Virus record (IMG/VR): IMGVR_UViG_3300050011_000542
Location: 31,217 to 95,216 of that record
DNA: 64,000 nt
Source of the DNA: a virus
Direction: 5' to 3' (one strand)
The first letter of the stretch is position 1; the number at the start of each line of letters is the position of its first letter. This document shows, piece after piece, positions 6,659 through 31,940 of this stretch. The translations under genes and the position numbers were made by a program. A model generated the notes under the pieces. That model ran no database searches. It was not told where the DNA came from and saw only the letters and a list, made by a program, of their open reading frames with translations.

Positions 6659-7096
6659 ATGGCGGATAACAATCCGAAGGAAGTCCCCCCGCGTTATTGG
6701 GTAGACCCCGGAGCTCCGGTAGAACACGAGCGCCCAGATCATAGAAATGAAATGAAGCGAGATTGGGTTGGTTATGTCATCCAGTCTGTAGCTATCTGTT
6801 TTACCGTCGTCGCAGCTATTTTTGTTTACTCCTGGCACATCGATGCACGGTTCGATGACCTGTCTCATAAATGGGACAACAGATTTGGCGAACACACTGG
6901 TTTGATTTCTTCTCTGCAGACGCAACAGGCCACGCTGCAGGCCCAGCAACTCGGGTTACAGCATCAGTTCGAAACTGCCGAAACCAGGCACAATAGCTTT
7001 GAAGGCGAAGTATCGCGCAAGCTTGATTCAGGCATGAACCAACTGGGTACGATTGCCACGGATCTGGCGCTTCTCCGCAAGGAGATTAAACATTGA
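6659..7096 (+). CDS. membrane protein with coiled coil, i-spanin-like
   Basis: 145 aa. A hydrophilic N-terminus of about 38 residues is followed by one membrane segment (about 39-60, VIQSVAICFTVVAAIFVYSW) and a Gln-rich coiled coil (about 85-125). It overlaps a lipoprotein gene by TTGA at 7093. An inner-membrane protein with periplasmic coiled coil followed by an overlapping lipoprotein is the arrangement of two-component spanins, which fuse inner and outer membranes at lysis. The cytoplasmic tail is longer than in classical i-spanins, and a tail-associated membrane role is the alternative. Confidence 0.55.
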   Translation: MADNNPKEVPPRYWVDPGAPVEHERPDHRNEMKRDWVGYVIQSVAICFTVVAAIFVYSWHIDARFDDLSHKWDNRFGEHTGLISSLQTQQATLQAQQLGLQHQFETAETRHNSFEGEVSRKLDSGMNQLGTIATDLALLRKEIKH

Positions 7097-7335
7097 AAAT
7101 TTTCCTAGCGCCGGTCCTTGTCGGGCTCTTGCTAGGAGCCTGCGCCGCCGACCGGCCCCGGCCTATCGAAATTAAAGGCCCTCTCGTAGATGGCCCAGTT
7201 GCCGACGCTTCACCTGCGCGCCGAACTGCCCCGTCAAATACCACCGAAACTGATTATCGAATTGATAAGCTTGAGAATTCCGTTCAGCAATTGAAAGACA
7301 CGTTGTCGGCGCCCCCAGCGCCACAAGGCCACTGA
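7093..7335 (+). CDS. lipoprotein, possible o-spanin partner
   Basis: 80 aa from TTG 7093, overlapping the stop of the previous gene. The lipobox LLLGAC puts the lipidated cysteine at 17; the mature part is Pro-rich with a short predicted helix (DKLENSVQQLKDTL). Small size and pairing with the 6659 membrane protein suit an outer-membrane spanin subunit. The lipoprotein assignment is firm; the spanin role is inference. Confidence 0.65.
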   Translation: MKIFLAPVLVGLLLGACAADRPRPIEIKGPLVDGPVADASPARRTAPSNTTETDYRIDKLENSVQQLKDTLSAPPAPQGH

Positions 7336-7351
7336 CCAATGAGGGTCTACC

Positions 7352-8644
7352 TTGCGAGATTTCAAAACTGTAGCTGAAGCCGAGGCGTTTCTTCAGGTCG
7401 CCTCCGAATTCCCCTCCAAGGCTGAATTCGCCAGGCACTTAGGCAAGTCAGTCACTACCGTAAAAGACACGCTGACTAGAGCAAAGCGCCTAGTACAAAA
7501 AGGTGACGAGCCAATCAGGCCGATGCCTGAAGTGCCAGAGGAAGCCGAAGAGCCCAAAATAGACCCTGCTGAACATGAGCGCTTGCGCCGGGCCAATGTT
7601 CGCCTCGAAACCCAGCAGCGCCATCTCACCACTAGGCTGCGCGAGCTCGACCAAGACAATCTGTCGGCCGAGCATGTGCGTGAGGCCATTTTCCATCTCA
7701 AAGCCGAAAGCTCGCTGCCCCCCGATTGGCTGATCGACGACCGTCCCGGTAAGGGTGTGTCTGGAGTTCCTTGCACCATCTGGAGTGACTGGCATCTCGG
7801 GGAAGTAGTCTCTCGGGCCGAGACCAACGGCATCAACGAATTCAACCTGTCGATCGCCGACACACGAATTCGCCGCCTAGTTAGCAGGACGATCGACCTT
7901 TGTTTTAACCACATGACCGGCACTGACTATCCGGGGCTGGTTGTAAACTTGATTGGCGACATCGTTTCCGGCTCGATCCACGACGAGCTGACCCGTACCA
8001 ATGAGATTACTTCTCTGCAGGTGGTTGTCTGGGCCAGGGACCGGATCTGCTGGGCACTGTCACAAATGGCCGACAAGTTCGGCAAAGTGTTCGTGATCGG
8101 CGTCCCCGGAAACCATGGTCGTACCACCAAGCGCATCGAGTCCAAGACCTTCGTCTACCAGAACTACGACTGGCTGATCTACACGCTGTGTGAAGCCTAC
8201 TTCAAAGAGGCCGGAGACGAGCGCGTGCGCTTCTATGTGCCGGTGTCAGGTGACGCTTATTACAATGTCTACTCGCATCGCTACCTGGCGATCCACGGCC
8301 ATGATCTGGGCGTTAAAGGCGGGGACGGCATTATCGGTGCGCTAGGCCCCATCCAACGCGGGGCCATTAAGACGCAGCATAGCTCGTCTCAAGTGCAGCG
8401 TGATTTCGATACCTTGCTGCTGGGCCATTGGCATCAAGAACTATGGCTTCCCAAGGTTTTCGTGAACAATACTCTCAAGGGATTCGACGAATTTGCCCTG
8501 AAATTCCTGCGCGCCCCGGCATCTGCACCGAGCCAATCCCTGTGGTTCACTCACCCTAAGCATGGAATCACCGCCAGGTGGTCCGTTTTCCTTGAGGATC
8601 GTCAGCGCGTAGATAACCCAGAATGGGTGTCCTGGGCGTCCTGA
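7352..8644 (+). CDS. calcineurin-like metallophosphoesterase with N-terminal HTH
   Basis: 430 aa from TTG 7352 (GAGGG upstream). Residues about 20-45 look like an HTH (EFARHLGKSVTTVKDTLTRA), followed by a charged helical linker (70-110). The catalytic region shows all five metallophosphoesterase motifs: SDWH 145-148, GD 202-203, GNH 253-255, HGH 315-317 and GHWH 358-361. These bind two metal ions in SbcD/Mre11 nucleases and related phosphatases. The complete set argues for an active enzyme, probably a DNA nuclease or phosphodiesterase. Its place between tail genes is unusual for a DNA-processing enzyme. Confidence 0.88.
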   Translation: MRDFKTVAEAEAFLQVASEFPSKAEFARHLGKSVTTVKDTLTRAKRLVQKGDEPIRPMPEVPEEAEEPKIDPAEHERLRRANVRLETQQRHLTTRLRELDQDNLSAEHVREAIFHLKAESSLPPDWLIDDRPGKGVSGVPCTIWSDWHLGEVVSRAETNGINEFNLSIADTRIRRLVSRTIDLCFNHMTGTDYPGLVVNLIGDIVSGSIHDELTRTNEITSLQVVVWARDRICWALSQMADKFGKVFVIGVPGNHGRTTKRIESKTFVYQNYDWLIYTLCEAYFKEAGDERVRFYVPVSGDAYYNVYSHRYLAIHGHDLGVKGGDGIIGALGPIQRGAIKTQHSSSQVQRDFDTLLLGHWHQELWLPKVFVNNTLKGFDEFALKFLRAPASAPSQSLWFTHPKHGITARWSVFLEDRQRVDNPEWVSWAS

Positions 8645-8667
8645 TCTGCTGAACAGGAACGCACCCC

Positions 8668-9093
8668 ATGGCGTTAGATGTTGCCGGCACACAAGCCCAG
8701 AAATGGATGGCCGGTGACGGGACCGGGGCCAGTGTTGGCGACCCGCTTATCCAGTCGATCGAAATTAATGGCGTAACCGACCAGGACGGCCTGGCGATTA
8801 AAGCCAGCTCGATCAACATCATCGATTTCAGTTTCACTTGCAACGGCAGCTGGCAGCACATCCTGACGGCCCAGGCCACCCGCAAGTATATGAAGATCCA
8901 GAACATCGGCACGGCCCTGATTGGCTGGGCCATTAACGATCTTACCAGTGCCAAGACGCCGCCTTGCCTCAGTGCAGTGACGCTTTATCCGGGTGGCTCC
9001 GAGAACAGCGACGGCTCGTCTTTCCATCACGGCGATGTGTGGATTAAAGGGCCGAGCGGCACCCCGGTCACCGTATTTTCGGATGTCGCCTAA
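8668..9093 (+). CDS. probable virion structural protein
   Basis: 141 aa, mainly beta in appearance, without signal peptide or membrane segment. It overlaps the tail-fibre gene by TAATG (9091-9095), so the two are made together. Size and position suit a fibre-base or decoration protein, but I do not recognise the family. Confidence 0.6.
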   Translation: MALDVAGTQAQKWMAGDGTGASVGDPLIQSIEINGVTDQDGLAIKASSINIIDFSFTCNGSWQHILTAQATRKYMKIQNIGTALIGWAINDLTSAKTPPCLSAVTLYPGGSENSDGSSFHHGDVWIKGPSGTPVTVFSDVA

Positions 9094-10892
9094 TGGGGAC
9101 ATTCAATCCGTATGTGCCGTTACCTGAAACCACGGTAACCGCAACCAAAGCACTTGCTGCCGGCACGATTGGCTCGGTGTTTGTTAATAACACCTCTGGG
9201 TCTGGCATTACGATTACCTTGCCGCCGAACCCATACGACAATCTTGTCATTGATGCTTTCGATGTTGCCGGTACGGCAGGTGCTCATACGATTACCTGGG
9301 TCGGAGCTGCCGGGGCCACTATCGGCGGTTCTTCCAGCTACCTTATGTCGGTTAATTTCGCCGCCATCAAGTTTTACTATTCGACGGCGGCAGGCGGTTG
9401 GTTTGTTGATCTAACAGCTTCTACCTATGCGTCTAATGCCGCAACGTCGGCGACGGCTGCAGCATCTTCAGCTACTGCAGCGGCAGGGTCTGCAACCACG
9501 GCGACTACACAGGCAGGCAATGCCGCGACTTCGGCTACCGCTGCTGCCTCTAGCGCGACTGCTGCAGCATCGAGCGCAACAGGAGCTGCAACTTCTGCTA
9601 CCACAGCTACGACGCAAGCTACCACAGCTACGACGCAAGCCACCACAGCTACGACGCAAGCGGGTATAGCGACTACCCAGGCAGGCAATGCCGCGACTTC
9701 AGCCACAGCCGCAGCAAGTTCTGCCACGGCCGCTGCTGCAAGTGCTACCGCTGCAGCGGGGTCGGCTACGGCTGCAGCGGGGTCAGCTGCCACTGCCCTG
9801 ACAACTATAGCCGGCGCTATTAATGGCGTGTCGGTAGCCAAAACAGCAGCCTACACAGTAGCAAATTCCGATAAACGGCTTACGCTTAGTTTCGGAGGCA
9901 GCACTGGCTACACTGTTACTGTTCCTTCAGCAGCGGGCTTTGACTCCGACTTCCAGGTACGGCTCTTTAATGCAGATGCAGGTCGTGCCAAAACGATAGC
10001 TATAACCGGGTATTCTAATTTCTTTCTGTGGCCATTGCAGTCGGTAATTGTTCATAACATCGGTGGCACTTGGGAAATGTACCCACGTACCCAACGCTGG
10101 ATACTACCTGGCGGCGGCATTCCTATGTATGTAGATCCAAGTGGCGGCCCGACTAATGACGGTCTGACGCTAGGATCAGCCAAGGCTACGATATTAGATG
10201 CTTGGAATACTATTAGGGATCAAACCGATGGTCCTCTATTTATTCAGCTTACGCCAGGGGTTACTTACTCAGTTATTGCTGGGGGAGGGGCTGTTTCAGG
10301 AGAGCTAGACGGGGACACAACTTCATCGTTTGGTAGACTAATACAGATTGTCGGAGATCCTACTCTAGTAAACCCGCCTATTTTGATTTGTGGTAGTGGC
10401 CAGTCGTGCATTGTTCTTAGAGACGGTGCTTGGAGCATCATCCATGGCATTTCTTTCAAGACAGTTGGCAATAGTAGCACCGGAGTTAATATTCAACAAA
10501 AAGCTCTTGGGGATATACAAGATTGTACTTGGGATATTTTTCCGCTTGGCTATCATATAATTGTTGATGATGATGGCGATGCTAATATGGCTGGCGCTAT
10601 GAAATTTGTTGGCAGCACTTCTATGCTTGCTCACATTTATGTTGGTCATAAAGGTAAGGTACTTTCTGGAGCAAGCTTCGATGGTACGGGTCAAACCGTA
10701 GCCTTTACAGTTGGTTTTATACAGTTGGATTTACATGCGGAAGCAACCTTCAACGGCTCGTCATTCGCTAATTTTGGCTCCTTTACCGGCCCCAAATACT
10801 TTATCACACACAGCAGTTTTTTAACTCAAGGGGGCCTTACTTTTCCAGGAAATGCCTCCGGCTCGGCTGATGGCACGAGCTTGGCATTCTAG
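9093..10892 (+). CDS. tail fibre with Ala/Ser/Thr repeat shaft
   Basis: 599 aa. Residues about 111-240 are low-complexity Ala-Thr-Ser heptad-like repeats (ATSATAAASSATAAA, TTATTQA), as in lambda Stf and other side-tail fibres, where they form a trimeric shaft. The C-terminal ~350 residues contain a beta-helix-like module (GGPTNDGLTLGSAKATILDAW) found in appendages that bind or cut surface polysaccharide. TAATG coupling to the upstream gene. No chaperone gene is obvious next to it. Confidence 0.85.
   Translation: MGTFNPYVPLPETTVTATKALAAGTIGSVFVNNTSGSGITITLPPNPYDNLVIDAFDVAGTAGAHTITWVGAAGATIGGSSSYLMSVNFAAIKFYYSTAAGGWFVDLTASTYASNAATSATAAASSATAAAGSATTATTQAGNAATSATAAASSATAAASSATGAATSATTATTQATTATTQATTATTQAGIATTQAGNAATSATAAASSATAAAASATAAAGSATAAAGSAATALTTIAGAINGVSVAKTAAYTVANSDKRLTLSFGGSTGYTVTVPSAAGFDSDFQVRLFNADAGRAKTIAITGYSNFFLWPLQSVIVHNIGGTWEMYPRTQRWILPGGGIPMYVDPSGGPTNDGLTLGSAKATILDAWNTIRDQTDGPLFIQLTPGVTYSVIAGGGAVSGELDGDTTSSFGRLIQIVGDPTLVNPPILICGSGQSCIVLRDGAWSIIHGISFKTVGNSSTGVNIQQKALGDIQDCTWDIFPLGYHIIVDDDGDANMAGAMKFVGSTSMLAHIYVGHKGKVLSGASFDGTGQTVAFTVGFIQLDLHAEATFNGSSFANFGSFTGPKYFITHSSFLTQGGLTFPGNASGSADGTSLAF
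9427..9810 (+). repeat. Ala/Thr/Ser codon repeat inside the fibre gene
   Basis: Imperfect tandem copies of short units such as gctaccacagctacgacgca, encoding the fibre shaft. The reverse strand also stays open here, giving spurious Ala/Val- and Arg/Cys-rich ORFs that are not genes. Confidence 0.75.
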
Positions 10893-11946: not shown

Positions 11947-12375
11947 ATGAGTAAAAGTATCATTGCTGCACTGGGTCTCACTGTCGCTCTCGGGGCTTGT
12001 GCCCCGGTTGCACCGAACGGTGTTAACCCGGTTGCCAGTCTGGAAACCACGCTGTCTTCGCCGGCAGGGCAGGCGTTCGTAACCAACCTGGTGGGTACGG
12101 CTTTCCCGCAGCTGAACACGATCGTTGCCAAGGGCTCGGCGGCTTCGGCTGCTGACCTTCAAAAGGTTGCCTATTGGCTGCCTTGGGTTCAGGGCGCTGT
12201 CGTGCTGTTCGGCCCGACCATCATGACGCCTGACGAGGTTACCAAGGTCAGTCAGGGCATTTCGCAGGTGTCGGCGCTGGTCGCCAATCCGCCTGCTGAT
12301 GTGAGCTCGGTGATGGTTACGGTTGGCCAGCTGGTCACCACGGTGCAGGCCGACCTCAAGCCGGCCCTGAAGTAA
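11947..12375 (+). CDS. lipoprotein
   Basis: 142 aa, ribosome site CCACGGAGGG at 11930-11939. MSKSIIAALGLTVALGAC is a lipoprotein signal with lipidation at Cys 18. The mature protein is helical, Val/Ala-rich and has no further hydrophobic anchor. Stop and the next start overlap as TAATG, so it is coupled to a second lipoprotein. Role unknown; cell-surface or lysis-related. Confidence 0.65.
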   Translation: MSKSIIAALGLTVALGACAPVAPNGVNPVASLETTLSSPAGQAFVTNLVGTAFPQLNTIVAKGSAASAADLQKVAYWLPWVQGAVVLFGPTIMTPDEVTKVSQGISQVSALVANPPADVSSVMVTVGQLVTTVQADLKPALK

Positions 12376-12680
12376 TGCCTATCCGTACCTGGCTTCTAGT
12401 GAGCCTAGCTTGCCTCGGGGCTTGTCAACCGCTCACTGGGAGTCAGGTTCAGGATACGGAGATTATACGACAAAGAATTGTCGGGGCTTGTCTGCTAACG
12501 CCGCTGTTTAAGCCGGTTGACACCGCCCTGACCGCTGCTATCCCAGCCGCCACTATCCCTGTCGACTTGAAGAACCTTGGTGTGGACATCGTGTGCAAGA
12601 ACCCGGCGTTCTTCGCTGCGCAAAACGCCACGACGGCTGATTGGGTAATGGCCCAGCTAAAGCCCTATTTCAGAGACTGA
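12375..12680 (+). CDS. small lipoprotein
   Basis: 101 aa, overlapping the previous lipoprotein gene by TAATG. The lipobox ACLGAC gives lipidation at about Cys 17. Two further cysteines (VGAC, IVCK) may form a disulphide in the periplasm. Not recognised. Confidence 0.65.
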   Translation: MPIRTWLLVSLACLGACQPLTGSQVQDTEIIRQRIVGACLLTPLFKPVDTALTAAIPAATIPVDLKNLGVDIVCKNPAFFAAQNATTADWVMAQLKPYFRD

Positions 12681-13333: not shown

Positions 13334-13360
13334 TTCTCTACCTCACCACGGATGGTGACC

Positions 13361-14041
13361 ATGCTTACCGATCTCGACCTAGTAAAGCTGCAGCTTGCTG
13401 CTTACGAATATGACGGCATGCCATTTGCCTGGGATTGGTCGGCCCAGATAAAGAGCGATAACATCGTCCTGGGCGGTATCAAGAATGTCGGTGACGATCA
13501 GGTTTTGATCTTCCCTGGCACGCGCACGCTCGACGAGTGGCGCATGAACTTTCAGGCTTTGCCAGAGAGCACGGACCACCCGGTGTTCGGGCCAGTGCAT
13601 CGGGGCTTTTTCACTGGGCTTGAGCCTTTCGTTACCATGGCCCAGACTCATCTGAATCCCAATAAGACGATCTATGTAGTCGGCCATTCTCGGGGCGCTG
13701 CAGAAGCACCACTGGCAGCTGCATTGCTGCGTATGGCCGGGCTCCTGGTCACTCGCATCGTGATGTTCGCGCCCCCCAAGACCGGCGAAGCCAAGTTCGT
13801 CGCTTTCATGGCCCCGGTCGACAAGGTACTGTATCGAAACTCAGGCCCAGACGGGCATGACTATGTTACCGATGTCCCTGCTTACATTCCTGGACTTGCC
13901 CCGTATGTGCATCTGGCAGGTCTAACCGATGTAAGAGGGGAGCCCGATCCCCTAGATGCCTGGGGGCTTTTCCGGTTCCACCACATTCAGTATTATTTAC
14001 AAGGACTTAGCAGTCTTTACGCTCTCAAAGGTGTCCAGTAA
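13361..14041 (+). CDS. class 3 lipase-like alpha/beta hydrolase
   Basis: 226 aa from ATG 13361; GGATG ribosome site in ACCACGGATGGT, and ATG 13352 overlaps that site. The nucleophile elbow VVGHSRG has Ser 110 in GxSxG. An oxyanion-region FPGTR at 51-55, a later Asp (DVPAYIPG) and a His in FHHIQYY could complete the triad, as in PF01764 lipases. No signal peptide. A virion-borne or lysis-stage esterase is possible. It is followed by an inserted homing endonuclease gene (TAATG). Confidence 0.75.
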   Translation: MLTDLDLVKLQLAAYEYDGMPFAWDWSAQIKSDNIVLGGIKNVGDDQVLIFPGTRTLDEWRMNFQALPESTDHPVFGPVHRGFFTGLEPFVTMAQTHLNPNKTIYVVGHSRGAAEAPLAAALLRMAGLLVTRIVMFAPPKTGEAKFVAFMAPVDKVLYRNSGPDGHDYVTDVPAYIPGLAPYVHLAGLTDVRGEPDPLDAWGLFRFHHIQYYLQGLSSLYALKGVQ

Positions 14042-14678: not shown

Positions 14679-15068
14679 ATGAAGAGGTTGTTGGCTCTTC
14701 TTTGTGTAGTCGCTCTGGCGGGTTTTCCGATCAGCCGGGCTTATGCTGACACGGTTGTAAACACCGGCCCCAGCGGGCTTGATCACAGCGGAAATCCTCC
14801 TTCGCTCAGCGGTCTTACTCTGCTGGCGACGATTGCCCCGAACAACAATCGCAAAGGGTACTTCGTTCAGGCCCAATGCACGGCCGGACTCACTGTTGTA
14901 TTCGATGACGCAGCGGGTTCGACCACCGCAACTGTAGTGGTACTCGGAGGAGCGGCGTCTAACGGAGCCCAGGGTGGCTCTGTAAATATGGCGGGTATGC
15001 CTCACCAGGGTCGTATCAGGATCTACTCCAGCTCGGCTGGGTGTCAGATGGCTTCGCGTGTCTGGTAA
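14679..15068 (+). CDS. secreted protein, unknown
   Basis: 129 aa from ATG 14679; TTG 14661 would mask the signal peptide. Residues 1-23 (MKRLLALLCVVALAGFPISRAYA) are a textbook Sec signal with AYA-D cleavage. The mature ~105 residues look like a small beta sandwich with two cysteines. First of a run of exported proteins; coupled to the next gene by TAATG. Not recognised. Confidence 0.65.
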   Translation: MKRLLALLCVVALAGFPISRAYADTVVNTGPSGLDHSGNPPSLSGLTLLATIAPNNNRKGYFVQAQCTAGLTVVFDDAAGSTTATVVVLGGAASNGAQGGSVNMAGMPHQGRIRIYSSSAGCQMASRVW

Positions 15069-15313
15069 TGAAAAGTCGGACCCGTATAGCTGTAGTTGCG
15101 GCGGCCTTAATAGTTGTCGCTGCTCTCAGCTCAGTCGCAAACGCTTGTATCGACCAGACTTTTGGTAGCACCGAAAACGACCCCGGTTCCTGTTCTGGGC
15201 TAGGTATCGGATTTCCTTTTACCGCAGCAGCACCACCGTCTGGATGCTCGGCTATTCAGCTAGATCAGACGGTTTCTTGCAACGCGGCGTCATTACCAAT
15301 TTTGGGGATGTAA
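15068..15313 (+). CDS. small secreted Cys-rich protein
   Basis: 81 aa from ATG 15068 (TAATG). Signal peptide with long hydrophobic core (RIAVVAAALIVVAALSSVANA). The mature ~55 residues have four cysteines, suggesting two disulphides in the periplasm or outside the cell. Not recognised. Confidence 0.6.
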   Translation: MKSRTRIAVVAAALIVVAALSSVANACIDQTFGSTENDPGSCSGLGIGFPFTAAAPPSGCSAIQLDQTVSCNAASLPILGM

Positions 15314-15316
15314 ATC

Positions 15317-15616
15317 GTGAAGAAACGCTCAATCATTGTAGGTTTATTTACGCTGCTTTCAGTTAGCCCGGCGATGGCCTGGGAGCCGTCCAAGGACGCC
15401 CCGGCCTGGGCCAGAAGTTTACCAGCGGTACACGGCGCTCTGCAGGCTTGTCGTGACCTGGAAGACTCGGTCCAGACGGCAATGCTCACTGCTCGCGCAC
15501 AATTAAATGCAGCACTTGCTGAGAATTCAGATCTAAAAAGCGCGTTATCCGATGCCATGGCTGATCGCGACAAAGCAGTAGCGCGAGTAAAAGAACTAGA
15601 GTCAGGAGCTCCGTAA
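15317..15616 (+). CDS. secreted coiled-coil protein
   Basis: 99 aa from GTG 15317. Signal peptide MKKRSIIVGLFTLLSVSPAMA, then an N-terminal PAW-rich part and a predicted coiled coil at about 55-97 (AQLNAALAENSDLKSALSD). Could be a spanin-like or oligomerising envelope protein. Same transcription unit as neighbours. Confidence 0.6.
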   Translation: MKKRSIIVGLFTLLSVSPAMAWEPSKDAPAWARSLPAVHGALQACRDLEDSVQTAMLTARAQLNAALAENSDLKSALSDAMADRDKAVARVKELESGAP

Positions 15617-15617
15617 C

Positions 15618-17720
15618 ATGAAAAGGCTCGTAATCGCAGCCGTTGTCGGCGCATTGCTGCATGGCCCTGCGTTTGCGGGGTCGAGCACGATCTCAGTTAA
15701 GGATGCTGGTGGATCTACGATCACTTTCGGAGCCACCACAGACGGGTCTACTAATCTTTATAGCAACTTCGCCATCGTTGACGGCTCAGCTGCCGCCAAT
15801 AAGGCGGGAGTTACGGCGCGCGGTGCGCTCCAGATCGAAGGTGTAGCGAGCGGTACTGCGATTCCGGTCAGTGCGGCTTCGCTGCCGCTTCCGACTGGAG
15901 CCTCGACCAGTGCCAAGCAGCCCGCCTTGGGGACTGCCGGCTCTGCATCAACCGACGTTCTGACCATTCAGGGCGCTGCCAGCATGACCAAGCTACTGGT
16001 CACTGCTGATCCGATCACCGGCACGGTCACGGCCAATGCAGGAACCAACCTCAATACTTCTGCGCTGGCTTTGGAGAGTGGCGGCAACCTCGCAACGATC
16101 GCAGGCAGTATTGTCTCTGGAGGTACGGCCCTTGGGTCGATTAAAAACAGCCTTACTGGTGGCTCGGTAACAACTGCTGCCCCGACCTACACCACTGGTC
16201 AGATTGATCCGCTAAGTCTCAATACATCGGGTGGCTTGCGAGTCGATGGTTCTGGGGTAACCCAGCCGGTCAGCGCGGCCTCCCTCCCGCTTCCCACGGG
16301 GGCCGCCACCTCGGCAATCCAAACTGGTGGCAGCCAGAAGACCCAGATTGTCGACGGCTCTGGCAATGTTATCGCCTCGACCAGCAACAACCTCAACGTC
16401 CAGTGTGCGAACTGTTCTGGCTCTGGGGTGAGCGCGGCGGATGAAGCCTCGTTCACCGCTGGGGCTTCGGTGTTCGCTTCTGGAGGTGGGTTCTTCCAGA
16501 CGACCGCGACCAGCAATCCCCTCACGACCGGCCAGCAGGGCGCCTTCCAGCTGACCGCCAACCGCGCGCTCTTTACCAATCTGCGCAATGCGGCCGGTAC
16601 AGAGGTGGGAACCTCCTCGACACCCCTGCAAGTGAGCCTGGCGAACACCGCAGGCAATGCGACCGCAGTTAAAGTCGATGGCTCGGCGGTGACGCAGCCG
16701 GTTTCCATCTCCGGTAATCAGGCGGTTAACGAGGCACAGATCAACGGCGTCACGCCGCTAATGGGCAACGGCGTTAGCGGCACCGGCTCTCAGCGCGTAA
16801 ACATCGCGTCTGACAACACCGCGTTTTCGGTCAATGCCAATGCTGGCACCAACCTTAATACCTCAGCCCTCGCGCTTGAGTCAGGGGGCAACCTGGCGAC
16901 GATCGCAGGCAATATCGTTTCGCAAGGGACGGCGCTAGGCGCGATAAAAAACGAGCTTATGGGTGCCTCGGTCACGACCGCATCCCCCACCTACACGACG
17001 GGACAGATCAATCCGCTCAGCATGGATACTTCGGGTTCTCTGCGGGTCAATGTCGTCACCGGAGGCACGTCAGGTACGGTAGCGCAAGGTTCGACTACTT
17101 CTGGGCAGTCGGGCATGATGATCCAGGGTGCGGTTACGACCGCAGCCCCGTCATATACTACAGCGCAGACGAGCCCGCTCAGTCTCAATACATCTGGTCA
17201 ACTGCGAGTATCGGTCGAAGCCATAACCAATTCGACGGGCGCTGCGACCGGCGCGAGCGTTCCCTCGAACGCCGGATATGCCGGGGTGCGTGCTACCACG
17301 TCGGAGCCCACGGCCGTTTCGGACGGCCAGCTAGCCGGCGTCATGGCCGATGTCCGTGGCGCCCAGGTGATGCTGCTGGGGGCGGTGCCGCAGAACTACG
17401 TCTCCGGGCTGATCAGCTCGGCCATGACCGGAACCACCAGCACCCAGCTTCTCGCCGCGCCGGCCGCGGGTTTGCGCAATTACGTGACGACCCTGGTCTG
17501 CTCAAACTCGCACGCCACGGTGAGTACGGATGTCGATATCAAGGACGGCAACGCAGGCACCTCGATTTTCACGATCCCGGCAGCCGCAGTCTACGGCGGC
17601 ACGGCGATTTCCTTCCCGGTCCCGCTCAAACAGCCGACGACTGCAACCCGCCTCGACGCCGCTGACGTGACGACCGGCGCTAACGTCCGCTGTGCCGCCG
17701 TAGGGTACAAGGGGGCCTAG
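15618..17720 (+). CDS. large repeat protein with signal peptide
   Basis: 700 aa. Residues 1-20 form a Sec signal (MKRLVIAAVVGALLHGPAFA). The body is beta-rich and low-complexity, with recurring SLPLPTGA elements and at least two long copies (about 142-205 and 410-475) of a unit reading TNLNTSALALESGGNLATIAG and then TTGQI-PLS. SLPLPTGA-type repeats occur in phage structural proteins. A signal peptide on such a protein is odd, because virion proteins normally stay in the cytoplasm, so a cell-surface role in the infected cell or lysogen is possible. Confidence 0.65.
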   Translation: MKRLVIAAVVGALLHGPAFAGSSTISVKDAGGSTITFGATTDGSTNLYSNFAIVDGSAAANKAGVTARGALQIEGVASGTAIPVSAASLPLPTGASTSAKQPALGTAGSASTDVLTIQGAASMTKLLVTADPITGTVTANAGTNLNTSALALESGGNLATIAGSIVSGGTALGSIKNSLTGGSVTTAAPTYTTGQIDPLSLNTSGGLRVDGSGVTQPVSAASLPLPTGAATSAIQTGGSQKTQIVDGSGNVIASTSNNLNVQCANCSGSGVSAADEASFTAGASVFASGGGFFQTTATSNPLTTGQQGAFQLTANRALFTNLRNAAGTEVGTSSTPLQVSLANTAGNATAVKVDGSAVTQPVSISGNQAVNEAQINGVTPLMGNGVSGTGSQRVNIASDNTAFSVNANAGTNLNTSALALESGGNLATIAGNIVSQGTALGAIKNELMGASVTTASPTYTTGQINPLSMDTSGSLRVNVVTGGTSGTVAQGSTTSGQSGMMIQGAVTTAAPSYTTAQTSPLSLNTSGQLRVSVEAITNSTGAATGASVPSNAGYAGVRATTSEPTAVSDGQLAGVMADVRGAQVMLLGAVPQNYVSGLISSAMTGTTSTQLLAAPAAGLRNYVTTLVCSNSHATVSTDVDIKDGNAGTSIFTIPAAAVYGGTAISFPVPLKQPTTATRLDAADVTTGANVRCAAVGYKGA
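16042..17040 (+). repeat. long diverged internal duplication
   Basis: Two copies of a unit of about 200 bp at about 16042-16245 and 16848-17040, encoding near-parallel ~65-residue segments (SALALESGGNLATIAG ... PLS-TSG-LRV). A shortened third copy of the end occurs near 17137-17215. Confidence 0.6.
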
Positions 17721-17723
17721 CCG

Positions 17724-18128
17724 ATGCAACGGACTTTCAAGGGTGAGTGGAGCCTCGGCGAGCTTCACGGTTATCCGTTTACGCTCGACGGGCGCGGAGC
17801 CTACACGCAGCTTCATGCCCACGATAAGGGCCATGTCATGCAGGCGACCCGGCGGGTTGGCGTCTATGCTGTGCTGCCGAGTGGTTTCGAGCACGTCGAG
17901 ACCGTGCCGCAGGGCGAGACACGTTACATCAAGGCGCACATACCGCATATCGTCTTTGCGGTCGAGGATGGGTTGACTGAATGTCAGTGCCTGTTCTCCC
18001 GCTACGGCGCTGAGGGAGAGTTTCGCGCCGATCCGAAAGAAGGATCGCGGCAACCCTACGTCGAGACTTGCGACCTCACGCAGTTGCCCGATCTTGTTCA
18101 AAAATGGCTTACCGATGAAGCGGCGTAG
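17724..18128 (+). CDS. hypothetical protein, cytoplasmic
   Basis: 134 aa, no signal peptide, unlike most of the cluster. A cupin-like segment LHAHDKGHVMQ at about 29-39 could bind metal. It overlaps the next gene by 14 bp. Not recognised; perhaps an assembly or modifying factor for the exported neighbours. Confidence 0.55.
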   Translation: MQRTFKGEWSLGELHGYPFTLDGRGAYTQLHAHDKGHVMQATRRVGVYAVLPSGFEHVETVPQGETRYIKAHIPHIVFAVEDGLTECQCLFSRYGAEGEFRADPKEGSRQPYVETCDLTQLPDLVQKWLTDEAA

Positions 18129-18567
18129 CGTCCTCCTTGCCGCGCTCGGTGCGCTATTCATTCCCGCATTTCGGCTGAAGGCTGCGGACGTGCCAAAACC
18201 AAGACTTTGCGTGTGGGCGAGCACCCGCAACACTGGGCTGCCGGGCCGACCGCAGCGCGGGGATGTGATCGACATCCTCGACACGACGCAGCACCCCGGC
18301 CGTAGCGTCTATGGACATCCCGACTTCCGCATCGTCGATGTCAACATGCAGTGCGACAATCCGAAGCGCGAGCTGGCTAAGTGGATCGCCCGCGACGATG
18401 CGCCGGAAGGTTTCCTGTCCTGGCATCGCAAGTTCACCCTCGACCTCGATGCGATTGAGCGAGCCGAACGCCGCCGCCTTGCGGTCGATGATGTGATCGT
18501 GACGCTGCCGGGCAATCTCTTGGTTAAGCCTAAGCTGATGCTGCCCGATCCGAGGATCATCGGATGA
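18115..18567 (+). CDS. exported protein with Tat/Sec-type signal
   Basis: 150 aa from ATG 18115, inside the end of the previous gene. MKRRSVLLAALGALFIPAFRLKAA has a twin-arginine-like start, hydrophobic core and AXA-like cleavage site. The mature region is charged and not recognised. It ends in an ATGA overlap with the beta-helix-like gene. Confidence 0.55.
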   Translation: MKRRSVLLAALGALFIPAFRLKAADVPKPRLCVWASTRNTGLPGRPQRGDVIDILDTTQHPGRSVYGHPDFRIVDVNMQCDNPKRELAKWIARDDAPEGFLSWHRKFTLDLDAIERAERRRLAVDDVIVTLPGNLLVKPKLMLPDPRIIG

Positions 18568-19574
18568 CGGTCACAAAGATCATCGGGCCAAATGTGGGGG
18601 CGGATTTTGCAACGCCTGCGCTGTGGTTTGCGTCTTTCCCTTCGACATTGATCGATAACGAGGTCGGCAACTTTCAAAATGCCGAGGTGGTGGCCTCGGC
18701 TTCTCAAGCGCTGACCGGCGTGACGGCGGGATCGTTTACCGTGACGATGCAGGCTGGTGCGGGAAATAGCTTCGCCGACAATGCCGGTAAACTGACTAAC
18801 GCCCTGGCCTATAACGCGAGCAACGGTGCGGCGTTGCGGGTGACGGCGTCGAGCAGCAGTCCGGCACTCGACATCCAGTGTAGCAATTTCGCTCTGATCG
18901 GCATTCAAGTCGAGAAGACCGACGCCTACGGTTCCGTCATCAGCTTCGGCAATAGTTCGTTTAGCGGGCGATCGATCAATCAAGTTATCGCTCAGCACAC
19001 CAATAATACGACCGTTACCGGCGATGTCTGCCTTGGAGTGAATGACGCCACCGGGCCGGTCAAGAATGTGCTGTGCCTTTCAGCCCCCAGTTCTGGCGCA
19101 GGGGTCGGCGGGATCAACAACATCAACCAGAACTGCGTTTATCAGGACATCACCATCGTCAATCTCGGGACTGGCGTGGGTCGAATAGGCTTTCAGGCAC
19201 CGTATGGCGCGCCGCTGCTGAATAACGTGGTCGTTGCTGGCTTTGCCACTGACTACAGCGGCACGGCTGGTACTTGCGCCAACAATGCGACCGACAAGGG
19301 TACGTTTGGCGGGACGAACTACGGTACGTCGGGGCAGGTCTCGGTGCCGCTTTCGACGGCGACATGGCAGAATATCACGCCCGCGACCGCCGATCTTCGG
19401 GCCAAGTCGTCGGGTACGAAACTTCCAGCCAACGGCACGAACACCGGCACGCCCTCGACCGATATTGTCGGCACGACCCGCGCCAGCCCGACAACGATAG
19501 GGGCGTGGGAAGCAAGCGCTGGTGGTGGCGGTGGTGCCAAGCCGCATGGCTTGCTGTTGCGAGGGGCGGGCTGA
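18564..19574 (+). CDS. parallel beta-helix-like protein
   Basis: 336 aa, Asn/Ser/Thr/Gly-rich with regularly spaced short hydrophobic strands (VCLGVNDATG, VLCLSAPSS, CVYQDITIVNLG), the look of a pectate-lyase-type beta helix in spikes and polysaccharide lyases. No signal peptide. The Gly-rich tail ends HGLLLRGAG. It lies directly upstream of a lyase-like protein (TGATG overlap), so the two probably work on the same glycan. Confidence 0.55.
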   Translation: MTVTKIIGPNVGADFATPALWFASFPSTLIDNEVGNFQNAEVVASASQALTGVTAGSFTVTMQAGAGNSFADNAGKLTNALAYNASNGAALRVTASSSSPALDIQCSNFALIGIQVEKTDAYGSVISFGNSSFSGRSINQVIAQHTNNTTVTGDVCLGVNDATGPVKNVLCLSAPSSGAGVGGINNINQNCVYQDITIVNLGTGVGRIGFQAPYGAPLLNNVVVAGFATDYSGTAGTCANNATDKGTFGGTNYGTSGQVSVPLSTATWQNITPATADLRAKSSGTKLPANGTNTGTPSTDIVGTTRASPTTIGAWEASAGGGGGAKPHGLLLRGAG

Positions 19575-22500
19575 TGCAGCGCATAAGCCGCCGCAGCTTG
19601 CTTGCAGGGAGTACTAGCGGCATAGCCTTGATGCGAGGGTTCGGGGGCGGCTTCATTGGCATCGGTGCCGGCACCAGCAGTAGCTGCGCGATCACGTCGG
19701 TCTTGCTCAACGGCAACTCAAGCACAGGAACGGTTTTATCAGGAAGTTCCGGGGCTACTGTGGGCACACTCACCAGCACCACGACGGGAAGCTGCGGCGC
19801 GGATAGCTGGACAAAAAGCGGCACGGATGCCGCCTCGTTTACAATAACCGGCGCAGTGGTAACGGCAGCTTCGTCGCTCAGTCCGGGCACCTATAGCGTC
19901 AATTTCATTGATACGATTGCTGGGGCAACGGGTTCCGGGGCAACGCACGCATTTACGATTACGGCCGCGGCCTCCACAACCCTAGCCACGCTGACCGTGA
20001 ACAACGTCAGCGGCAGCGCCATGCCGGCCTCGGCGTTCTGGGAGTTCGGCCAGCCCTTCGGCGACGGCGATGTGCCGACTGGCAGCATCGTTACGGCGAC
20101 GCTCAACGGCACGAGCGTACCGCTTCAAGCCATCGCCAGAAGCACCCACGGCAGCGGCGCGGCTTCGTCCGGATCGCTGAAATGGGGCCTGCTCCAGGCC
20201 GATCTATCCGGCGTGGCTATTAGTGCGGGCTCAAGTCAGGCGCTTGTCCTTTCATCGACCGCGGGTTCTTGGAGTTCAACGACCGGACGCACCAATGCCG
20301 ATTGGACGGGTCTGGTGGATACGGTCGAGTTGACGAACCTGACGACGACCGGAACATCATCAAGCACGATGAACAAGGCCGGGACGTGGATCGCCGCGTT
20401 CGATAATGGCGCGAGCAATACTCTCGAAACCGTTGGCACCAGCCCGCTCGGTCTGCGGGTCAAGGTCTACGCCAATTTTGTCAACACCGGCACGACCCAC
20501 CGCTATCTGCGCGCGTATATGGAATATTGGGTGACGCAGCTTGCCGGCGGCGGTCTGGGGCCAATAGCTTCGTTCGGGCCGATGATCGACAACACCCGGA
20601 TGCTCGTCACCAGCGGCACCGATACGCCGAGCCAGTTCACCTACGATATCAATTGGAAGCGCAACGGCGCGTCGCAGCGCTCGATCACCGGCATCCCAGG
20701 CATTGCAGGGACGCTCCTGCCGTTCTGCCGGGGGGATGGACAGTACGATTGGACGGCAAGCGAGCCGGTCGTTGTCGTCACGCGTGACATCACGGAGCTG
20801 CGCAAGACCAAGAAGGTTCCGCCCTTCATCTCAGGGCTGACGACCTATTCGTTCTCGACCGAAGGGCAGATCAGCTCTCTCGGCGCGACCATGACGATGA
20901 TAAATACGGGAGTCGCCAATCCGCTGTGGGGCAGCCAGAACACGACAAACCCCGTAGCCGTGAGCTTCCGAACGACGGGCGCGTTTCCGACCGGGATAGT
21001 CTCTGGCACGACCTACTGGGCAGCGTTCCTCAGTTCGACGACGTTCTCCTTTTACGACACCCTGGCTCATGCGGTCTCGGCCGGTGCAACGGGCAAGGTG
21101 ACGCCATCGGGCGGGAGCGGAACGCTCTTTGTGCGCCTCGACACAGCGCCGACCAGCCCAGGCCCGCTGTGCCAAGGTTTGGAGGCGGCGGGCAATCGGC
21201 CGGACATCAGTATTTTCACCGAATGGGCTGTGGCACCCCTTTTCGCGGCCAGCGTCTCGGTTGCCGCCGCTCAAGCTGCCCAGCGTATGGCGCGCGCCAC
21301 GGCGATGGCGATGTCTGGCGTGCCGTATCACTACCTCGACAACACGACGAATAAGATCATCTCGCTCTTGCCGACCGCGCAAACGCCCGCAGGGATGCAG
21401 GGGGCCGCCGATTACAGCGCCGCCTACTGGACGGGGAGCCTCTACAGCAGCGTAATCAATGGCGGCTCGGGGCCAACGGGAAGTCAAAACGGCTGGGATG
21501 CTAACACCACCTACGGGAACAGCAGTCACATCCCCTCGCCGATCTATCTGACGTGGCTGCTTGAGGGCAAAATCTATTTCCGGGATTTGCTATTCAATCT
21601 CGGCAACCGGGCTATCGTTGGCGCGGGCGGAGCCTATGGTCCGCAGATGAATTATGTGGACTCAGCGGTTGGTAGTGGCACTACCTATTATAGAAACTGG
21701 ATATTGGACAGCGGCGAGTCGATCCGCGCCTGCGCATGGTCGATGCGTGATGTCGCCAATGCCGCGATGGCCGCCTCGGATGGGTCAGACGAGCGAACCT
21801 ATTTCGTGCAATCGCTGCGGGATAACCTCGATCTCTACGCGGCGTTCCGCACCTACAAGAGCACCAATTACTCCAACTTGGGGATTTTCTATTACGATAC
21901 GGGCGACTGGCCGGCATCGACGCATAACCTGGCTCCTAGCGTCGTTGAAGGGTTTATGGCGGTCTATTACGTCAACGCGGCGCAGTTCGCGGCGATGCTG
22001 CACACGGACAACGCCAGCGTCGGAACTGATCTGAATACCTGCGCCAATAACTGGGCGACGTGGCTGATAAATTTCTACAATCAGTGGGGCTTTGCTAGCA
22101 CCGGGTACTCGATCAACCCGCGCACAACGGCGATGGGGCAAGCAACAACCGGGGCGGCTTATGCCTCTGGCGTTGCCAATGTCGGACAGGGGCCGGGGTC
22201 GAATATCTTTTTCAGCTACTCGGGTACCACCATTACATGGAGCGGCGTCGATCCGTGGTGGACGCTGGCGGTGGGGGACAAGTTCCAGCCAACCAATTGG
22301 TTCTCCCTCGACACTGCCTCGGGTTCGACGCCGAGCTGCGCTGATCCTCCAGCATCGCTCACAATTGGGACGATCTATACGATCCTCACGGTCAATGTTG
22401 GGGCCAAGACCTTCACTCTAAATAACGGCAGCGGTTCGCCGATATCGTTCGCCACCTCGCCAAGCAATCTCGGTGGCTTCCTGCTCCCGAGCGGGCAGTC

Positions 22501-22711
22501 CTTCGCGTCTACCGGCTATATCAGCGACGCCAATGGTGCGGGTGGCGCTGACGGTTACGGCGCGCATGTAATATCTGGTCTGGGGATGGCGGCTGTCCGG
22601 GGCGTAAGTGGGGCATCTGCCGCCTTCACGAGCGCCAACAACCGCTATGTCCTGGGGACGCCGCTCGCCTATAACACCGAGGCGATGTGGTACATGCAGA
22701 GTTCGGTTTAG
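19574..22711 (+). CDS. large PcRGLX/YetA-like polysaccharide lyase candidate with Tat-like signal
   Basis: 1045 aa from ATG 19574, in a TGATG overlap; the reading frame stays open 300 bp upstream but inside the beta-helix gene. Residues 4-11 (ISRRSLLA) resemble a Tat motif. From about 140 the segment FGQPFGDGDVP (about 158) and then GSLKWGLL (about 199) resembles the first domain of exo-rhamnogalacturonan-lyase-like (PcRGLX/YetA) proteins, whose consensus has P-F-x-x-G-x-x and GS-x-KW. A Trp/Tyr-rich region (about 600-830) could be an alpha/alpha toroid. I infer surface-polysaccharide cleavage. It converges on the minus-strand methyltransferase, overlapping by 4 bp. Confidence 0.55.
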   Translation: MQRISRRSLLAGSTSGIALMRGFGGGFIGIGAGTSSSCAITSVLLNGNSSTGTVLSGSSGATVGTLTSTTTGSCGADSWTKSGTDAASFTITGAVVTAASSLSPGTYSVNFIDTIAGATGSGATHAFTITAAASTTLATLTVNNVSGSAMPASAFWEFGQPFGDGDVPTGSIVTATLNGTSVPLQAIARSTHGSGAASSGSLKWGLLQADLSGVAISAGSSQALVLSSTAGSWSSTTGRTNADWTGLVDTVELTNLTTTGTSSSTMNKAGTWIAAFDNGASNTLETVGTSPLGLRVKVYANFVNTGTTHRYLRAYMEYWVTQLAGGGLGPIASFGPMIDNTRMLVTSGTDTPSQFTYDINWKRNGASQRSITGIPGIAGTLLPFCRGDGQYDWTASEPVVVVTRDITELRKTKKVPPFISGLTTYSFSTEGQISSLGATMTMINTGVANPLWGSQNTTNPVAVSFRTTGAFPTGIVSGTTYWAAFLSSTTFSFYDTLAHAVSAGATGKVTPSGGSGTLFVRLDTAPTSPGPLCQGLEAAGNRPDISIFTEWAVAPLFAASVSVAAAQAAQRMARATAMAMSGVPYHYLDNTTNKIISLLPTAQTPAGMQGAADYSAAYWTGSLYSSVINGGSGPTGSQNGWDANTTYGNSSHIPSPIYLTWLLEGKIYFRDLLFNLGNRAIVGAGGAYGPQMNYVDSAVGSGTTYYRNWILDSGESIRACAWSMRDVANAAMAASDGSDERTYFVQSLRDNLDLYAAFRTYKSTNYSNLGIFYYDTGDWPASTHNLAPSVVEGFMAVYYVNAAQFAAMLHTDNASVGTDLNTCANNWATWLINFYNQWGFASTGYSINPRTTAMGQATTGAAYASGVANVGQGPGSNIFFSYSGTTITWSGVDPWWTLAVGDKFQPTNWFSLDTASGSTPSCADPPASLTIGTIYTILTVNVGAKTFTLNNGSGSPISFATSPSNLGGFLLPSGQSFASTGYISDANGAGGADGYGAHVISGLGMAAVRGVSGASAAFTSANNRYVLGTPLAYNTEAMWYMQSSV

Positions 22712-31073: not shown

Positions 31074-31940
31074 ATGGGTATCAAATTTACTGGTAAAGCC
31101 GCTGCTGCGGTAGCTGCCCAGCCTGATGAAGGCACCCAAGACAATACGGGACAGGCCGGGGCGCACGGAGTTCAGCCAGCCCCTCTTAGCTTCGTAAAGC
31201 CCGGCGTTGCTATTGCAACTGCCCAGGCGGCTCCCAAGTCCACAGTAAGCTGGATGAAGAAGGGTCTCGCCCTCCAGTCAGCTCTCCAGAAAGACGAAAC
31301 TATTGCGGCCGAGCGCAAGGCCGACCGTGAGAAGCTCTGGCGCTTTCGCATGAAAGCCGGCCAGGAGCGGACAGTCACCTTTCTCGACGGCAACCTCGAC
31401 GCTAACGGCATGCTGAACGCAGTTGCTTTCCGCGAGCATCGTGTACCGTTCCAGGGCGGCTATCAGAACTACATCTGCACCGAAGACAATGAACCGTGCC
31501 CGATCTGCCAGGGCGGTGATCAGTCTTCGTTGGTGTTCGCTTTCACGATCATCGACCACACGCCCTATACGTACACCAGTGGCCAGAATGCCGGTAAGAC
31601 GGTGAGTGACCGGGTGAGATTGTTTGCCTGCAAACGAACCTCCTACCTGATGCTGCAGAAGCATGCGACGGCCCAGGGCGGTCTAGCAGGTGTCACGTTT
31701 GAGATTACCCGCACCACCGATAAGTCCCCAGGTGTTGGCGATGTTTTCGTGCCGACCATGAAGAACAGTATCGCCGATATCCAAGCCCAGCTGCCAGATG
31801 CCAAGGTAGCCAATTACGAAGAAGAATTGATCTACCGTGATGCCGCTACCCTGTCTGCTATGGGGCTGGGCAAGACGGTTACGACGATCGGCGCCAAGTC
31901 TTCGTCTGCAACCATGCAGCAGGCTGAAGATTTGTTATAG
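31074..31940 (+). CDS. single-stranded DNA-binding protein, gp32-type
   Basis: 288 aa. A charged/Ala-rich N-terminus is followed by a region with KAGQERTVTFLDG, FREHRVPFQGGYQNYIC and a zinc motif C-x6-CPICQGG with later residues. It matches the T4 gp32-like layout (EHRV, FTC, CPLC). It coats template strands for helicase, RecA and primase. Ends 11 bp before the tRNA. Confidence 0.75.
   Translation: MGIKFTGKAAAAVAAQPDEGTQDNTGQAGAHGVQPAPLSFVKPGVAIATAQAAPKSTVSWMKKGLALQSALQKDETIAAERKADREKLWRFRMKAGQERTVTFLDGNLDANGMLNAVAFREHRVPFQGGYQNYICTEDNEPCPICQGGDQSSLVFAFTIIDHTPYTYTSGQNAGKTVSDRVRLFACKRTSYLMLQKHATAQGGLAGVTFEITRTTDKSPGVGDVFVPTMKNSIADIQAQLPDAKVANYEEELIYRDAATLSAMGLGKTVTTIGAKSSSATMQQAEDLL

Follow-up and report, generated by a model that had tools for sequence, protein, structure and literature searches.

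The stretch analyzed here (the window) comprises 64,000 nucleotides, positions 31,217 to 95,216, of the IMG/VR viral record IMGVR_UViG_3300050011_000542, which is 95,216 bases long. It contains a cassette of eight genes at 14679-22711, each referred to below by its first position, six of whose products begin with Sec- or Tat-like signals. Judged from their sequences, the products of this cassette are probably genuine exported proteins that are made late and act outside the cytoplasm on glycans of the cell envelope or matrix. We take export to be real because the signals are accompanied by invariant Tat arginines, by a pair of cysteines that co-varies with the signal, and by a clustering of signal-bearing genes. 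All eight open reading frames (ORFs) are present and packed head to tail (Table 1).

Signals were called with a hand-written rule consisting of a positive n-region, a hydrophobic core of 9 residues, and small residues at positions -3 and -1, with start codons inferred. Sec-type features of this kind, with a charged n-region, are found in 14679, 15068, 15317, and 15618, while 18115 and 19574 have Tat-like N-termini, the latter with a weak hydrophobic core. The rule flags 5 of the 8 cassette genes, missing 19574, versus 9 of the 117 other genes of the record (hypergeometric p = 4e-4), and in 2000 residue shuffles it flagged a mean of 0.2 of the 8 genes and a maximum of 3. It also flags a holin-like gene and some cytoplasmic genes. 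Twin arginines are invariant across three phages in both Tat proteins (R3R4 of 18115 and R6R7 of 19574). The N-terminus of 19574 is unconvincing by itself, and its Tat signal is credible because of its homologues, which begin with MNRRSVLAGAAAGVAM and MKIRRRALLGGAASVLVARQAEA; one homologue matches Pfam TAT_signal, below the cut-off. An earlier note on this DNA had counted six signal-bearing genes and two without a signal (17724 and 18564), and this count holds, with five clear Sec or Tat signals and one weak Tat-like N-terminus, that of 19574, whose twin arginine is conserved.

Further evidence comes from the C-terminal domain of the fiber-like 15618 protein, a jelly-roll at residues about 590-700 in which a cysteine pair is present. 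The C-terminal 146 residues of this protein share 58% identity with a protein of podovirus ctMEh928 that lacks a signal, and a first scan with this domain pair as the query found 74 viral loci. A second scan, made after the predicted link between signal and cysteine pair had been written down, contributed 13 new loci. The jelly-roll was found in 86 phage loci, where most members are signal-less and a minority start with a good Sec signal. In the first scan, the cysteine pair, with one cysteine on the first strand of the domain and one on the last, occurred in all signal-bearing members and in no signal-less one; the apparent exception, L083, reflects a start-codon limit of the script, and a signal is present on inspection. 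Dereplicated at 85%, these members divided into 11 with and 0 without the pair among the signal-bearing, versus 1 (the L083 entry) with and 33 without among the signal-less (p = 1e-9). The second scan gave the predicted direction (4 of 6 signal-bearing versus 0 of 7 signal-less members, p = 0.02), and both scans together yield 18 of 20 versus 0 of 66 (Fisher p = 1e-16).

The two cysteines always occupy domain positions 78/146 or 80/144, never a mixed register, and the constant sum of the positions fits contacting residues on antiparallel strands, as a disulfide requires. These positions fall within strands 72-82 and 142-151 of the predicted jelly-roll structure (core pLDDT about 95). We infer, with strong support, that the proteins are exported and that the jelly-roll would be disulfide-bonded in an oxidizing compartment, the periplasm or beyond. 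When the cysteine columns are left out of the tree, the signal is gained or lost 5 times, with 3 or more of these changes forced by supported branches, and because of these repeated changes the link between signal and cysteines is not one inherited event. Among solved structures, the best match of the jelly-roll is the trimeric phage capsid cement protein 7dou (E = 6e-4), followed by a capsid chain of the cyanophage Pam1. The domain also resembles Ena spore appendages and BclA/C1q domains, and the TM-scores are modest (0.43-0.51). It therefore has a virion-decoration or fiber fold, while the signal of the 15618 protein sets it apart from signal-less proteins of cytoplasmic origin. PHROG scans gave no match for the fiber homologues and nearly none for other exported proteins.

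Signal-bearing genes also cluster around the jelly-roll. Signals were found in 22 of 79 (28%) of the other same-strand genes at loci with a signal-bearing jelly-roll, versus 8 of 253 (3%) at loci where the jelly-roll is signal-less (p = 2e-7), and the cysteine content of mature parts is 1.58 per 100 residues in signal-bearing proteins versus 0.80 in the rest. The exported genes follow a tape measure gene in the siphovirus-like loci L072 and L084 and, in the podovirus-like locus L020, are flanked by genes for the major capsid and the tail nozzle, with gene identities read from the ORFs. The cassette of the window thus exemplifies a broader pattern, in which runs of exported genes sit inside late structural regions.

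At locus L024, an exception to this clustering, the jelly-roll is signal-less and four neighboring genes bear signals. In L048 (3484-4347), a second fiber domain (ADNVA.T.GSG...) is accompanied by a signal and two additional cysteines, and in L018 (4313-5104) by neither a signal nor these cysteines; this domain may repeat the pattern of signals with cysteines. L018 also encodes an exported protein of 575 residues (7918-9645) that reads as a glycoside hydrolase barrel with a GDEP motif and has no Pfam or PDB match.

Five genes of the cassette form a core that is found in the same order in two viral contigs, L004 (a 55.6-kb record) and L005, namely those for an exported fiber-like protein, a cupin-like protein, a small Tat protein, a beta-helix protein, and a large, lyase-like Tat protein. 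Spacings between the core genes of the window are 3, -14, -4, and -1 bases, and the last four genes overlap in L004 and L005 too. Identities to the window in the two contigs are 61/52% for the small Tat protein, 46/50% for the cupin-like protein, 56/57% for the beta-helix protein, and 27/23% for the large Tat protein. Both contigs also encode, upstream of the fiber gene, small signal-bearing proteins of a size like the 14679 product, and L005 has a protein similar to the 15317 product, whose mature part was judged by eye to be helical or coiled-coil. Profile scans with the other members of the cassette matched only L004 and L005 and nothing among genomes or reference phages. All relatives in the analysis are uncultured metagenome contigs, except for one named record that is itself environmental. 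Elsewhere in its genome, a sister phage encodes a tandem pair of tailspike-like proteins as well as a beta-helix protein, all with Sec-type N-termini; the exported beta-helix protein has a weak match to a tail-spike PHROG (E = 1e-3) and a weak pectate-lyase match, and a family test with the N-terminus of the sister-phage spike matched only itself.

The glycan connection comes from individual family members. The L005 homologue of 19574 passes the cut-off for the domain PcRGLX_1st (Pfam PF19501) with 29.3 versus 22.1 bits, and in L079 an exported neighbor of the jelly-roll gene contains a LamG/ConA lectin domain (Laminin_G_3, 41 bits). Residues 463-516 of 19574, a stretch of 54 residues, are 55% identical to tail fibers of the Leptospira phages LE3 and LE4 and are probably a shared fiber module; when the 19574 protein was used to scan reference phages, viral contigs, and genomes, this Leptospira phage fiber stretch was the only match. 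Sequence searches of the PDB gave nothing or chance-level matches. The 18564 protein reads as a beta-helix and the 17724 protein as cupin-like from the appearance of their sequences. The earlier note's first reading, of secreted or surface proteins some of which act on glycans, is supported by the co-variation of the cysteine pair with the signal, the conserved gene order in three phages, and the PcRGLX match in L005.

If the products are exported, the 15618 fiber with its jelly-roll and the PcRGLX-type lyase-like protein would be predicted to serve as adhesins and glycan-active proteins. If the host is Gram-negative, they would be retained in the periplasm, where the disulfide of the jelly-roll would form. 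Lysis would then free them, and their adhesin or lyase activity on envelope or matrix polysaccharide could help the progeny leave debris and matrix; alternatively, they could alter the surface of a lysogen. Tat co-export of folded partners is an established route for some bacterial complexes. The signal-less beta-helix and cupin proteins may be co-exported with their Tat neighbors in this way, since signal-less and Tat genes alternate within a single operon of overlapping genes, an arrangement that would fit such a route.

Several points weigh against export and action on glycans. Signals were assigned by a home-made rule rather than SignalP and from inferred start codons, and the signal-bearing members L141 and L147 lack the cysteine pair. 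The Fisher tests ignore shared descent, and the tree offers 3-5 independent contrasts, for which a sign test gives p = 0.25. The 19574 family is strongly divergent (23-27% identity), neither the 19574 protein nor the L004 member has a Pfam match, and the AlphaFold model of the family, which shows strands and then helices, is unreliable (pLDDT 28). Finally, each exported-type phage tested that had a match carries a single copy of the jelly-roll domain, so that the exported version may stand in for a component of the virion instead of being an added secreted tool.

Lysogenic conversion, in which a cassette expressed from the prophage alters the lysogen surface like lambda Lom and Bor and leads to superinfection exclusion or matrix remodeling, is an alternative that we think unlikely. 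The phage is probably temperate because an integrase is present on the record, and the position of the cassette between tail and later genes resembles that of lambda lom, which encodes an exported protein between the J tail spike and the tail fibers (PMC12309495). However, an integrase was found in only 4 of the 14 records searched, these contigs being possibly incomplete, and the exported genes hold a late-operon position in several lineages. Together, the late-region location and the fact that most related contigs show no integrase argue mildly against lysogeny alone. Neither promoter nor terminator signals above shuffles were found for the cassette, and the lack of a promoter of its own above chance also speaks against conversion.

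Quite unlikely, in our judgment, is a route in which these are virion proteins that pass through the periplasm, have their signals cleaved and their disulfide formed outside the cytoplasm, and attach to particles when lysis mixes the compartments. The structural matches of the jelly-roll to capsid proteins and the position of cassette genes among head and tail genes would suit this route, as would the single domain copy, as if the exported form replaced a cytoplasmic version, but the TM-scores are modest, such jelly-rolls also occur in the secreted fibers Ena and BclA, and no precedent for the route was found in the literature searched. The contrast drawn in the earlier note, that virion proteins usually have no signal, needs care, as the signal-less homologues are themselves fiber- or decoration-like, which leaves room for a virion role after export. 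A general scheme of split assembly, in which environmental phages would send fiber or decoration proteins through Sec or Tat, disulfide-bond them in the periplasm, and fit them onto virions at lysis, appears decidedly improbable. Least credible of all is that the hydrophobic N-termini are not export signals and arose by chance or serve membrane insertion during DNA entry, the latter being a reading that the earlier note had offered. The insertion of some phage virion proteins into membranes and the holin-like and cytoplasmic genes flagged by the rule are in its favor, but it fits poorly with the invariant Tat motifs, the A-x-A type cleavage sites, the co-variation of the cysteine pair with the signal, the clustering of signal genes, and the low count in shuffles.

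The record carries a siphovirus gene set comprising portal, tape measure, minor tail protein, central tail fiber J (phrog_31, E = 2e-233), endolysin, and integrase. Bacterial contamination was ruled out by the presence of portal, tape measure, gpJ, endolysin, and integrase on the same record. The cassette follows the tail-fiber genes in the late structural region, with all genes on the + strand. The G+C content of the five-gene core (15618-22711) is 61% versus 54% for the record, a step that is not seen in L004 or L005 and that suggests a transfer, probably a recent one, from a G+C-richer genome.

Table 1. Genes of the cassette and of its upstream surroundings, with positions in the window.
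Feature	Position	Strand	Remarks
Tail-fiber genes	9093, 10901	+	Upstream of the cassette
Holin-like gene	11557	+	Upstream of the cassette
Lipoprotein-type N-terminus (LGAC)	11947..12375	+	Upstream neighbor
Lipoprotein-type N-terminus (LGAC)	12375..12680	+	Upstream neighbor
Class 3 lipase, signal-less	13352..14041	+	Upstream neighbor
Homing-type endonuclease	14041	+	Upstream of the cassette
Small Sec-exported protein of 129 aa; mature part with 2 Cys	14679..15068	+	N-terminus MKRLLALLCVVALAGFPISRAYA
Small Sec-exported protein of 81 aa; mature part with 4 Cys	15068..15313	+	N-terminus MKSRTRIAVVAAALIVVAALSSVANA
Small Sec-exported protein of 99 aa; starts with GTG	15317..15616	+	N-terminus MKKRSIIVGLFTLLSVSPAMA
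Exported fiber-like repeat protein, 700 aa, Sec signal	15618..17720	+	N-terminus MKRLVIAAVVGALLHGPAFA
Cupin-like protein, 134 aa, no signal, overlaps next gene	17724..18128	+	Read as cupin-like from conserved His; protein shared by three phages
Small Tat-type exported protein, 150 aa	18115..18567	+	N-terminus MKRRSVLLAALGALFIPAFRLKAA; RR invariant
Protein reading as beta-helix, 336 aa, no signal, overlaps both neighbors	18564..19574	+	Homologues in two phages
Large Tat-type exported protein, 1045 aa, PcRGLX/lyase-like via L005 homologue	19574..22711	+	N-terminus MQRISRRSLLAGSTSGIALM

The gene list of the earlier note stands as given. Exported genes lying upstream, which the note overlooked, start at 7093, 11947, and 12375 (lipoprotein-type N-termini) and at 188 (Sec type). 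The lipoprotein-type N-termini (LGAC; 7093-7335, 11947-12375, and 12375-12680) lie in the tail and fiber region, have no PHROG match, and possibly belong to spanins or surface lipoproteins. Gene 188-589 encodes 133 residues with a clear Sec signal and is flanked by a lambda-K-like and a J-like tail gene, at a site where one would expect a gene for tail assembly.

Phages normally have their fiber-like and sugar-polymer-attacking proteins made within the host cell, and the exported phage genes that are known, Lom, Bor, and the spanins, occur singly. No description of exported fiber-like phage cassettes was found in the open-licence literature searched, and conserved cassettes of exported fiber- and lyase-like proteins with a signal-linked cysteine pair have not previously been described there. 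If our reading is correct, tailed phages that infect uncultured bacteria of soil and water would make routine use of the export machinery of their hosts at a late stage of infection, which would bear on how virions exit from matrix-coated cells and on how lysogens appear to other phages. Annotation would be affected as well, since such genes are otherwise labeled tail fibers or hypothetical proteins.

Bor is a lambda lipoprotein, and its gene, like lom and those of the cassette, is a phage gene with a signal peptide near tail-fiber genes. Lom is one outer-membrane beta-barrel and Bor one lipoprotein, whereas the cassette comprises runs of soluble fiber- or lyase-like proteins, two of them Tat-type; Pfam and PHROGs scans, made with no barrel prediction, gave no match to a Lom-like family. 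Tailspike depolymerases resemble the predicted cassette products in being beta-helix or lyase proteins that act on exopolysaccharide, and so does Pantoea WceF, an exopolysaccharide enzyme whose fold is tailspike-like (PMC7949094). Tailspikes differ in being virion-bound and normally signal-less, and WceF in being bacterial. The N-terminal domain of the exo-rhamnogalacturonan lyase-like family (PcRGLX, PF19501) is matched above the cut-off by the L005 homologue, 19574 itself being without a Pfam match. The fold of the 15618 C-terminal domain resembles that of the cement proteins of KHP40 and Pam1 and of C1q, BclA, and Ena fibers; unlike in these, the domain in 15618 stands behind an export signal, and most signal-bearing members of its family contain the cysteine pair.
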